64,000 nucleotides of DNA. It comes from Streptomyces sp. 1331.2 (GTDB lineage: Bacteria > Actinomycetota > Actinomycetes > Streptomycetales > Streptomycetaceae). The stretch spans positions 6,069,001 through 6,133,000 of the forward strand of contig NZ_OBMJ01000001.1 in the NCBI RefSeq assembly GCF_900199205.1, written 5' to 3'. Within the stretch, counting starts at the first letter, position 1. Each line of letters begins with the position of its first letter. The notes beneath the pieces are model-generated. The model was not told the DNA's origin. It searched no databases and saw nothing but the letters and a program-made list of their open reading frames with translations. Below, piece by piece: positions 35,821 to 56,044 of this stretch. The position numbers were made by a program, and so were the translations under genes.

Positions 35821-36579
35821 ATGTCCGGCCACTCTAAGTGGGCTACCACCAAGCACAAGAAGGCCGTGATCGACGCCAAGCGCGGCAAGCTCTTCGCCAA
35901 GATGATCAAGAACATCGAGGTGGCGGCGCGCACCGGCGGTCCCGACCCGGCGGGCAACCCGACCCTCTACGACGCCATCCAGAAGGCGAAGAAGAGCTCG
36001 GTCCCGATCGACAACATCAACCGCGCCGTCAAGCGCGGTGGCGGTCTGGAGGCCGGCGGCGCCGACTACCAGACCATCATGTACGAGGGCTACGGCCCGA
36101 ACGGCGTCGCGGTCCTGATCGAGTGCCTCACCGACAACCGCAACCGCGCCGCCTCCGACGTGCGCGTCGCGATGACCCGCAACGGCGGCTCGATGGCCGA
36201 CCCGGGCTCGGTGTCGTACCTGTTCACCCGCAAGGGTGTCGTCATCGTCCCCAAGGCCGACGGCGTGGACGAGGACAAGCTCTTCGAGGTCGTCCTCGAC
36301 CAGGAGCCCGAGGAGATCAACGACCTCGGCGACTCGTTCGAGATCGTCTCCGAGGCCTCCAAGATGGTCGCCGTGCGCACCGCGCTGGTGGACGCCGGCG
36401 TCGACTACGACTCGGCCGAGGCCAACTTCCTCCCGAGCATGCAGGTCGAGCTGGACGTCGACGGCGCCCGCAAGATCCTCAAGCTGATCGACGCCCTGGA
36501 GGACAGCGACGACGTGCAGAACGTCTTCGCCAACTTCGACATCTCCGACGAGGTCGGTGCGCAGCTCGACGCCGAGTGA
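35821..36579 (+). CDS. yebC: YebC/PmpR-family protein
   Basis: 252 residues from ATG 35821, with AAAGGAG upstream. Start [20 protein letters not shown] is invariant in the family, and three domains are expected. YebC proteins were long called transcription regulators; some are now linked to translation of proline-rich stretches. TAAGAT at 35773-35778 is a plausible -10. It lies between pdxT and the ruv operon, as in many bacteria. Confidence 0.95.
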
Positions 36580-36667
36580 CACGGCATCGATCGATCGACG
36601 GTGAGTGATCGTTCTCACTGCCCGGCCCGGTGGTCCCAGGACCGCCGGGCCGGTGTCGTCGGTCGCG

Positions 36668-36690
36668 TTGTCGGACCCGAACGATAGCCT
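36668..36690 (+). promoter_or_regulatory. PafBC/RecA-NDp-like DNA damage promoter of ruvCAB
   Basis: TTGTCGGAC (36668-36676), exactly 8 bp (36677-36684), then TAGCCT (36685-36690). This follows the mycobacterial LexA-independent consensus TTGTCRGTG-N8-TANNNT with 7 of 9 matches in the first box and the exact spacing. The expected start, about 36697, leaves a 40-nt leader with GGGAGG. Confidence 0.65.
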
Positions 36691-36738
36691 GCGCAGGTCA
36701 CTCCGGTGAGTGGCGAGTCGACGGGAGGCAGAGCTGTG

Positions 36739-37302
36739 GTGCGGGTACTGGGCGTGGACCCGGGGCTGACCAGGTGCGGGGTCGGCGTGGTCGAGGGCGC
36801 GCCGGGCCGGCCGTTGCGGATGGCCGGGGTCGGCGTGGTGCGCACGCCCGCCGAGGCCGAGATCGGGCAGCGGCTGCTCCTGGTCGAGCAGGGGATCGAG
36901 GCCTGGCTGGACGAGCACCAGCCCGACCTGGTCGCCGTCGAGCGGGTCTTCGCCCAGCACAACGTGCGCACCGTGATGGGCACCGCGCAGGCCAGCGCGG
37001 TCGCGATGCTCTGCGCGACGCGCCGCGGCATCCCCGTCACCCTGCACACCCCGAGCGAGGTCAAGGCAGCCGTCACCGGCTCCGGCCGGGCCGACAAGGC
37101 CCAGGTCACGGCCATGGTGCAGCGCCTGCTGCGGCTGGACGCCCCGCCCAAGCCCGCGGACGCCGCCGACGCCCTGGCGCTGGCGATCTGCCACATCTGG
37201 CGCGGCGGGGCGACCAACCGGCTTGAGGCTGCCGTCCTGGCCGCCCGCGCCACGCCCCGCTCCACCCCGCGCTCCACGCCCCTGAGAGGAACAATCCGGT
37301 GA
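36739..37302 (+). CDS. ruvC: Holliday junction endonuclease RuvC
   Basis: 187 residues from GTG 36739, giving the family start [17 protein letters not shown] 36736 in frame is nearly equal, both served by GGGAGG at 36723-36728. Acidic active-site residues are the Asp in GVDPG, Glu in AVERVF and Asp in [12 protein letters not shown]. It cuts Holliday junctions on the RuvAB complex. First gene of ruvCAB; its stop overlaps the ruvA start by 4 bp. Confidence 0.96.
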
Positions 37303-37910
37303 TCGCCTTCGTGCAAGGGCCCGTGGCGGCCATCTCCGCCGGGACGGCGGTGGTCGAGGTCGGCGGGGTGGGCATGGCGGTGCAGTGCACTCCGAACACC
37401 CTGGCCGGCCTGCGGCTGGGCGAGCCGGCCCGGCTGGCGACCTCGCTGGTGGTCCGGGAGGACTCGCTGACCCTCTTCGGGTTCGCGGACGACGACGAGC
37501 GCGCCGTCTTCGAGATCCTGCAGGCCGCGCCGGGTGTCGGCCCCAAGCTGGCGCAGGCGATCCTCGGGGTGCACAGCCCCGACGCGCTGCGGGCCGCGGT
37601 CGCCGGCGGGGACGAGAAGGCGCTGGTCGCCGTGCCCGGCATCGGCAAGGCCAAGGCGGCCAAGCTGTTGCTGGAATACAAGGACAAGCTCGGCGCCCCG
37701 CACGGCGCGGTGCCCGCGCAGAAGCCGCTCGCGGCCGGCCCGGCGCCGTGGAGCGAGCAGCTGCACTCCGCGCTGACCGGTCTCGGCTACGCCCCGCGCG
37801 AGGCGGACGAGGCGGTCGCGGCCGTCACCCCGGAGGCGGAGGCGCAGCAGACGCCGGACGTCGGGGCGCTGCTGCGGCTCGCGCTGCGCGGCCTCAACCG
37901 GGCCCGCTGA
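37299..37910 (+). CDS. ruvA: Holliday junction branch migration protein RuvA
   Basis: 203 residues. GTG 37299 overlaps the ruvC stop (GTGA), indicating translational coupling. N-terminal OB domain; two helix-hairpin-helix motifs ([16 protein letters not shown] and [16 protein letters not shown]); a charged linker; C-terminal domain III ([15 protein letters not shown]) that contacts RuvB. Forms tetramers on the junction. Confidence 0.96.
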
Positions 37911-37935
37911 GGCCAACTGACGATCTGTCCATTTG

Positions 37936-37980
37936 TCGACCGTATCGACGGTATCGACCGTGTCGACCACGTCGACCACG
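37936..37980 (+). repeat. Five tandem 9-bp repeats (TCGACSRTR-like) between ruvA and ruvB
   Basis: Units TCGACCGTA, TCGACGGTA, TCGACCGTG, TCGACCACG and TCGACCACG follow each other without gaps in the 91-bp gap between ruvA and ruvB. Read in the ruvB frame they would encode Ser-Thr-Val-type repeats, but the likely ruvB start is downstream. Confidence 0.85.
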
Positions 37981-38001
37981 GAGACTTGGGAGCCCGCGAC
38001 G

Positions 38002-39087
38002 ATGTACGACTCGGAACCCGCCGACCGGCTGGTCACGGCGGCCGCCGATGGTGAGGACCAGGCGGTGGAGGCGGCGCTGCGCCCCAAGCTGCTGGACGAG
38101 TTCATCGGCCAGGAGCGGGTGCGCGAGCAGCTGTCCCTGGTGCTCCAGGCCGCCCGCAAGCGCGGCAGCGCACCCGACCACGTGCTGCTGAGCGGGCCGC
38201 CCGGGCTGGGCAAGACCACCCTGTCCATGATCATCGCCGCCGAGCTGGGCGCCCCGATCCGGATCACCTCCGGCCCGGCCATCCAGCACGCGGGGGACCT
38301 CGCGGCGATCCTCTCCTCGCTCACCGAGGGCGAGGTGCTCTTCCTCGACGAGATCCACCGGATGTCCCGGCCGGCCGAGGAGATGCTCTACATGGCGATG
38401 GAGGACTTCCGGGTCGACGTGATCGTCGGCAAGGGCCCGGGCGCGACCGCCATCCCGCTGGAGCTGCCGCCCTTCACCCTGGTCGGCGCCACCACCCGGG
38501 CCGGCCTGCTGCCGCCCCCGCTGCGGGACCGCTTCGGCTTCACCGGGCACATGGAGTTCTACGCCCCGAGCGAGCTGCAGCGGGTGGTGCACCGCTCGGC
38601 GGCCCTGCTGGACGTCGAGATAGACCCGGCCGGCGCCGCCGAGATCGCCGGGCGCTCGCGTGGCACCCCGCGCATCGCCAACCGGCTGCTGCGCCGGGTC
38701 CGCGACTACGCGCAGGTGCGGCACGACGGCGTGGTCACTCCCGAGATCGCCGCCCAGGCGCTGGACGTCTACGAGGTGGACGCCCGTGGTCTGGACCGGC
38801 TGGACCGTGCGGTGCTGGACGCGCTGCTGCGGCTGTTCGGCGGCGGCCCGGTCGGTTTGTCGACACTCGCGGTCGCCGTGGGGGAGGAGTCCGAGACGGT
38901 CGAGGAGGTGGCGGAGCCCTTCCTGGTGCGCGAGGGCCTGCTCGCCCGGACCCCGCGCGGGCGGATCGCCACCGCCGCCGCCTGGCAGCACCTGGGCCTG
39001 ACCCCGCCGGCCCAGGCAGGGTCGGCCCAGACCTCGCGCGGCAGCGTGCCGGCCCAGTCGGAGCTGTTCCCCGCCGACGAAAGTTGA
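38002..39087 (+). CDS. ruvB: Holliday junction branch migration ATPase RuvB
   Basis: 361 residues from ATG 38002 (GGGAG at 37988-37992). AAA+ core with Walker [11 protein letters not shown], Walker B LFLDEIHR, sensor [10 protein letters not shown] and arginine finger in PLRDRFGF; the C-terminal winged helix binds DNA. It drives branch migration with RuvA. An upstream in-frame extension from 37933 would run through the 9-bp repeats and is unlikely to be natural. Last gene of ruvCAB. Confidence 0.96.
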
Positions 39088-54665: not shown

Positions 54666-54688
54666 GTGTCGGAGGCCTCGCATAGGCT
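54666..54688 (+). promoter_or_regulatory. PafBC/RecA-NDp-like promoter of rarA, leaderless
   Basis: GTGTCGGAG (54666-54674), exactly 8 bp (54675-54682), then TAGGCT (54683-54688), against the consensus TTGTCRGTG-N8-TANNNT: 7 of 9 plus both fixed -10 bases. The predicted start site, about 54695, is the GTG itself. Confidence 0.6.
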
Positions 54689-54694
54689 TCCGGT

Positions 54695-56044
54695 GTGGAC
54701 GAACCGGACCTCTTCACCGCCGCCGCCGAGGAACGCCAGGCCAAGGAGCCAGGGCGGGCGCCCCTGGCCGTGCGGATGCGCCCGCGCACCCTGGACGAGG
54801 TGGCCGGGCAGCGGCAGCTGCTGAAGCCCGGCTCGCCGCTGCGGCGGCTGGTCGCGGGCTCGCGCGGCCCGGCCGCGACCAGCTCGGTCATCCTCTGGGG
54901 ACCGCCCGGCACCGGCAAGACCACCCTGGCGCACGTGATCAGCCAGGCCGTCGAGGGGCGCTTCGTCGAGCTGTCCGCGATCACCGCCGGGGTCAAGGAG
55001 GTCCGGGCGGTGATCGACGGCGCCCGGCGGGCGGTCGGGATGTCGGGCCGGGAGACGGTGCTCTTCCTGGACGAGATCCACCGCTTCTCCAAGGCCCAGC
55101 AGGACTCGCTGCTGCCGGCCGTGGAGAACCGCTGGGTCACCCTGATCGCGGCGACCACCGAGAACCCGTACTTCTCGGTGATCTCCCCGCTGCTGTCCCG
55201 TTCGCTGCTGCTCACGCTGGAGTCGCTGACCGACGATGACATCCGTGCGCTGCTGCGCCGCGCGGTCGCCGACGAGCGCGGCCTGGAGGGCGCGCTGGAG
55301 CTGACCGAGGAGGCCGAGGACCACTTGGTGCGCCTCGCCGGCGGGGACGCCCGGCGGGCGCTCACCACGCTGGAGGCGGCGGCCGGGGCCGCGCTGGAGA
55401 AGGGCGAGCCGGCCATCACGCTGGCCACCACCGAGACGGCCGTCAACCAGGCGGCGGTGCGCTACGACAAGGACGGCGACCAGCACTACGACGTGGCGAG
55501 CGCGCTGATCAAGTCGATCCGCGGCAGCGACGTGGACGCCACCCTGCACTACCTGGCCCGGATGATCGAGGCGGGCGAGGACCCGCGGTTCATCGCCCGC
55601 CGGCTGATGATCTCGGCCAGCGAGGACGTCGGCCTGGCGGACCCGACGGCGCTGCAGACGGCCGTCGCCGCCGCGCAGGCGGTGGCGCTGATCGGCTTCC
55701 CGGAGGCGCGGATCATCCTCTCCCAGGCGGCGATCGCGCTCGCCCTCGCGCCCAAGTCCAACGCGGCCTACCTGGCCATCGACGCGGCCCTGGCGGACGT
55801 CCGGCAGGGCCTGGCGGGCGCGGTGCCGGCGCACCTGCGGGACGCGCACTACGGCGGCGCGGGCAAGCTCGGCCACGGCAAGGGCTACCAGTACCCGCAC
55901 GACCTGCCGGAGGGCATCGCCACCCAGCAGTACGCGCCGGACGCGGTGCACGGCCGGGAGTACTACCAGCCGACCAGGCGCGGCGGCGAGGCCCGGTACG
56001 CGGACGTCGTGGAGTGGACGAGGGCCAGGCTCAGGGGCGAGTGA
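54695..56044 (+). CDS. rarA: Replication-associated recombination protein A (RarA/MgsA)
   Basis: 449 residues from GTG 54695. AAA+ clamp-loader-like ATPase: Walker [13 protein letters not shown], Walker [12 protein letters not shown], sensor ATTENP, and the C-terminal tetramerisation part with [19 protein letters not shown] and GYQYPHD. It acts at stalled replication forks. No ribosome binding site is at a usable distance, consistent with a leaderless transcript from the motif just upstream. Confidence 0.95.

Follow-up and report, generated by a model that had tools for sequence, protein, structure and literature searches.

RecA-NDp promoters were found at the recA gene of Streptomyces rimosus and then generalised in Mycobacterium tuberculosis, according to the accounts of that work given in PMC5087735 and PMC8223512. 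Their regulator is PafBC, which acts by sigma adaptation upon binding single-stranded DNA (PMC11804915). The PafBC regulon of M. smegmatis takes in ruvA and ruvC (PMC8223512), and RecA-independent induction of ruvC has been published for M. tuberculosis (Dawson 2010, as cited in PMC8151990). The S. coelicolor macrodomain gene SCO6735 has a RecA-NDp promoter and is UV-inducible (PMC5087735), and in an initial search published in 2022 the M. smegmatis PafBC motif seemed not to be conserved in S. venezuelae (PMC9380542).

The window analysed here is a stretch of 64,000 nucleotides (C1:6069001-6133000 within the 8.43-Mb genome), in which a preliminary description had placed a LexA-independent DNA damage promoter in front of ruvCAB. 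Judged from sequence, positions 36668-36690 are very likely the promoter of the ruvCAB operon, of the PafBC (RecA-NDp) class. This reading is supported by enrichment of the motif in the genome, by the repair genes behind it, by the presence of both PafB and PafC, and by deep conservation of the site at ruvC.

The ruvCAB promoter region

The site reads TTGTCGGAC-N8-TAGCCT, exactly at positions 36668-36690 upstream of ruvC. The features of the region, and a second promoter of the same kind found elsewhere in the window, are the following.

35821..36579, plus strand: yebC, the upstream neighbour, with its stop at 36579
36620..36653, plus strand: strong hairpin behind yebC with a folding energy of -37 kcal/mol (z -4.7), resembling a terminator that lacks a T run
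36668..36676, plus strand: -26 box TTGTCGGAC, which with the following CC gives the recurrent form TTGTCRGACCC
36677-36684: spacer CCGAACGA, 8 bp between the boxes
36685..36690, plus strand: -10 hexamer TAGCCT, nearly invariant across Streptomycetaceae
36695..36698 (near 36697), plus strand: predicted transcription start, about 6-7 nt past the -10, placed from leaderless relatives
36723..36728, plus strand: ruvC Shine-Dalgarno sequence GGGAGG, read directly
36736..37302, plus strand: ruvC, Holliday junction resolvase, GTG start with Shine-Dalgarno support
37299..37910, plus strand: ruvA, overlapping the ruvC stop
37933..39087, plus strand: ruvB, completing the gene order yebC, ruvC, ruvA, ruvB
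54666..54688, plus strand: second PafBC-like promoter GTGTCGGAG-N8-TAGGCT, 6 nt 5' of a RarA-like GTG

The likeness to the mycobacterial PafBC motif that had been claimed, in spacing and in seven of nine bases of the first box (compared with TTGTCRGTG), is borne out: the TTGTCRG core is exact, the change from TG to AC is a recurrent one, and both the 8-bp gap and the TANNNT -10 are perfect. The site was also said to have no conventional -35 at 17 bp, and the search for a sigma-70-like -35/-10 pair indeed came up empty there, with no TTGAC-like -35; the hexamers 17-18 bp 5' of the -10 read directly as GTCGCG and GGTCGC. Additionally, the -35 positions at ruvC are not conserved among Streptomyces relatives. 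The distance to ruvC, previously given as 49 bp, is correct to within one base for the GTG at 36739 (48 nt) and does not hold for the GTG at 36736, which lies 45 nt away. The hairpin behind yebC probably insulates ruvC from that gene. At the second promoter, the RarA-like AAA ATPase gene (54695-56044) is apparently leaderless.

Distribution of the motif, conservation at ruvC and the regulator

Likeness to the consensus by itself is weak evidence, because the mycobacterial consensus at three mismatches or fewer has 38 matches in the window, where about 17 would be expected; four of the 38 have two mismatches or fewer. The more specific pattern TTGTCGG-N10-TANNNT has exactly one match within the window. 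The preliminary description had called for a scan of the whole genome and had warned that equally good hits might lie at random throughout it. In pattern searches of the genome, with the reversed pattern and a Markov simulation as controls, the 8.4 Mb contain 31 matches to TTGTCRG-N10-TANNNT, as against 2 to the reversed pattern and 3 in the simulation. The genes directly 3' of the 31 sites, assigned by coding-frame composition together with family searches, include recA, uvrB, radA, recD2, sbcD, pcrA/uvrD and ung, and also polA, dnaX, an AlkZ-like glycosylase, greA, a macrodomain protein and ruvC itself. At about half of the sites an ATG or GTG stands 5-11 nt past the -10, a position that fits leaderless transcripts, with some of these matches being due to chance. 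Two further sites have the perfect consensus, C1:6635185 and C3:293710 (L007 and L011). The gene behind the first encodes a SUKH-4 domain protein, and the one behind the second, on contig C3, a protein with no Pfam match.

A naive 23-column matrix that included the spacer gave 97 chance matches and discriminated much worse, and it was therefore replaced by one restricted to the functional columns. With the ruvC site left out of its training, the functional-column matrix yields 5-12 equally good chance matches per 8.4 Mb, which corresponds to roughly 0.0001 for a promoter of 160 bp. When a full-length matrix is trained on the remaining sites, the ruvC site scores poorly. It is conservation, rather than the matrix score, that settles that the site is real.

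We compared the best forward match to TTGTCRGTG-N8-TANNNT at 138 ruvC loci. A subset of 113 represents Streptomycetaceae and close relatives (L031-L110 without L054, L066, L070 and L107, together with L111-L140 and L162-L168); it includes at least three genomes twice, and S. venezuelae is not among the ruvC loci. The consensus is perfect at 59 of the 113 loci, has two mismatches or fewer at 104 and four or fewer at all of them, and the reverse strand of the ruvC regions rarely has fewer than four mismatches. Both boxes and their spacing persist while the distance from the -10 to ruvC spans 6 to 196 nt, and repeats are inserted 3' of the -10 with the promoter left intact. In the window's genus, which is Kitasatospora-like, the -10 averages 1.93 bits per column and the first box 1.53. 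The corresponding values at Streptomyces loci are 1.76 and 1.68 bits, and the sequence upstream averages 0.35; the box values are raised by the choice of a set having at most two mismatches. Outside the family the ruvC site is absent in most members of the class, a few of which keep a related form.

In two species of Streptacidiphilus the ruvC ATG stands 6 nt past the -10, and its position points to the likely start site. Leaderless starts 6-8 nt past the -10, at Streptacidiphilus ruvC, at radA and at several genes of the regulon, fit the -10 as assigned. Ten Streptomyces loci (L059, L061, L073, L074, L077, L082, L086, L088, L090 and L096) carry a conserved insert of about 82 nt between the ruvC promoter and the Shine-Dalgarno sequence. 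It was considered as a structured leader RNA of ruvC and rejected: no match to it was found in Rfam, and it proved to be a dispersed repeat, present 2-9 times in a genome and hence not specific to ruvC. Short hairpin repeats of the type CTGGGGG...GCTGGGGGAG lie between the -10 and the Shine-Dalgarno sequence in the ruvC leaders of L058, L069, L079, L093 and L099.

The host genome encodes a protein with an HTH_PafC match (E 6e-31) that follows PafB. PafB itself matches the PafB chain of M. smegmatis in PDB entry 7p5x (E 8.5e-55) and retains the helix AF-RMFERDK. The pafBC pair is downstream of ARC-, dop-, prcB-, prcA- and pafA-like genes, assigned by reading N-terminal sequences, in a Pup-proteasome locus. 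Across the class, HTH_PafC is present in 110 of 118 genomes, and the class scan gave 17-51 motif sites in each of the seven further family members that it covered, as against 0-5 in controls.

The GACCC box and the SOS box

The window's box has GACCC in place of GTG, and Kitasatospora ruvC mostly has TTGTCGGACCC where the consensus has TTGTCRGTGG. Rather than a decayed GTG, this is a second form of the box that recurs: TTGTCRGACC-N7-TANNNT is found in 76 of the 81 family genomes searched, where the control totals stay in single digits, and TTGTCRGACC far exceeds its reversed control in the same 81 genomes. In relatives this form precedes ligA, radA and genes for a MazG-domain protein, peptidases, acetyltransferases and others. 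Among the non-repair genes behind TTGTCRGACCC we observed those for an S9 peptidase, acetyltransferases and a moaA-like protein (L219-L238; L150, L152 and L153), often with the start codon 6-7 nt past the -10. A gene for a CAP12/Pycsar-type TIR effector (L227:1554-2513) lies directly behind a GACCC-form promoter, which suggests that a gene for phage defence is linked to damage signalling.

Since GACCC departs more from the mycobacterial consensus, and since some genes behind it in relatives are not repair genes, a different factor could read it. The form TTGTCRGACCC, with the palindrome GTCNGAC inside, would then be recognised by another WYL regulator, for example a SiwR-like homodimer at -26. 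The strong enrichment of the GACCC form in its own right and its mixed gene content are in keeping with such a reader, as are the four further weak HTH_PafC matches in the host genome and the GGA-containing palindrome to which SiwR binds at -26 (PMC10693628). A SiwR-like operator would be a 19-bp imperfect palindrome reaching from -35 to -10 beside a WYL gene; the comparison with it took in GTCGGAC at the site, by direct reading a short palindrome, and the neighbouring genes, yebC and ruvCAB, which are not WYL genes. Set against this, at ruvC and radA the GTG and GACCC forms interchange between close relatives with unchanged spacing, and intermediates such as GAG occur, which argues that one regulator reads both; moreover, the GACCC form precedes the core repair genes ruvC, radA and ligA. 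We regard another WYL reader as unlikely. It also seems improbable that TTGTC[AG]GACCC-N6-TANNNT constitutes a distinct, undescribed sigma-adapted class in Streptomycetaceae, with a WYL reader other than PafBC and with Kitasatospora ruvCAB freed of joint control by LexA and PafBC.

A further explanation is that ruvCAB is mainly an SOS operon repressed by LexA, with the conserved motif merely its constitutive core promoter. In S. venezuelae, ruvC has a LexA ChIP peak and a 2.78-fold induction by mitomycin, and is counted in the LexA regulon (PMC9380542). Most Streptomyces ruvC regions carry an SOS-like box, approximately GGAAC-N4-GANCGA, whose best register is 2 nt past the -10; the best match falls exactly there at 39 of 79 loci, and four mismatches or fewer are found at 49 of 79 as against 5 of 79 after shuffling. 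This box fits the S. venezuelae LexA peak, though the box named in that report is a different one. In the window the situation is as the preliminary description had it: the best match to the SOS box TCGAAC-N4-GTTCGA in the yebC-ruvC gap has 4 mismatches in 12 (36591), the match that overlaps the promoter (36677) has 5, and matches at ruvC in the window's genus are no better than in shuffled sequence. The conserved upstream element, moreover, is a -26 box common to other repair genes and not a -35, and LexA and PafBC can act jointly, as they do in mycobacteria (PMC8223512). A purely SOS-type operon is thus quite unlikely. The term LexA-independent suits the window's genus, where no SOS box stands out, better than the family, since in most Streptomyces relatives an SOS-like box adjoins the motif. 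As for other elements near the promoter, CGAACGATAGCC, which overlaps it, was considered as a LexA half-site and dropped, being not kept in the genus. In Kitasatospora (L111-L140) CGCAGGTC is strongly conserved past the -10 near the predicted start, at the place where Streptomyces has the SOS-like box.

Finally, it is hardly credible that the likeness arose by chance inside a common housekeeping promoter whose -35 is poor. The GC-rich window does hold many consensus matches with several mismatches, but the exact core is enriched and the site is conserved despite its variable distance from the gene.

Proposed mechanism and comparison with described systems

Under the PafBC reading, and by analogy with the M. 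smegmatis complex, DNA damage would give rise to single-stranded DNA, which would activate PafBC. PafB would read the -26 box TTGTC[AG]G, and PafC would contact domain 4 of the housekeeping sigma factor, substituting for the -35 element. RNA polymerase would open the DNA at TAGCCT, and transcription would start near 36697. The sequences themselves show the site and its conservation, the set of similar promoters on repair genes across the genome, the pafBC pair, and the exchange of GTG for GACCC at orthologous promoters; from these we infer PafBC binding, the start site and the induction of ruvC through PafBC in the host. In most Streptomyces the SOS-like box just 3' of the -10 probably adds repression by LexA; because no such box is detectable in Kitasatospora, damage signals may reach ruvC there mainly or solely through PafBC. 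The family offers a natural contrast: in most Streptomyces ruvCAB carries both a PafBC and a LexA element, in Kitasatospora the PafBC element only. The results also provide family-wide sequence evidence for a PafBC damage regulon in Streptomycetaceae, against the published remark on non-conservation in S. venezuelae, and they define GACCC as a concrete, testable promoter form.

The closest described counterparts are the RecA-NDp/P1 promoters of recA in Streptomyces rimosus and M. tuberculosis (Ahel 2002, Gamulin 2004), which are controlled by PafBC. They share with the site the TTGTCRG core, the 8-bp gap, the TANNNT -10 and the lack of a -35, as well as the association with DNA repair genes and a pafBC pair in a Pup-proteasome locus. 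Unlike them, the site has AC followed by CC, rather than TG, at positions 8-9, and its ruvC leader contains a Shine-Dalgarno sequence. The ruvC genes of M. tuberculosis and M. smegmatis represent the same gene under the same class of control (RecA-independent induction, Dawson 2010; PafBC regulon, Mueller 2018), but M. tuberculosis ruvC also has an SOS box and none is detectable in Kitasatospora. S. venezuelae ruvC is the same operon in the same family and is damage-inducible, yet it is described only as a LexA target (PMC9380542). SiwR and DriD are WYL factors that likewise sense single-stranded DNA; they act as homodimers, SiwR at the -26 position, where its operator is a 19-bp palindrome at one operon. 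Since PafBC control of ruvC is known in mycobacteria, the present finding is a new case with a variant box and not a new type of system; what is new here is its breadth across the Streptomyces/Kitasatospora family and the variant form of the box.
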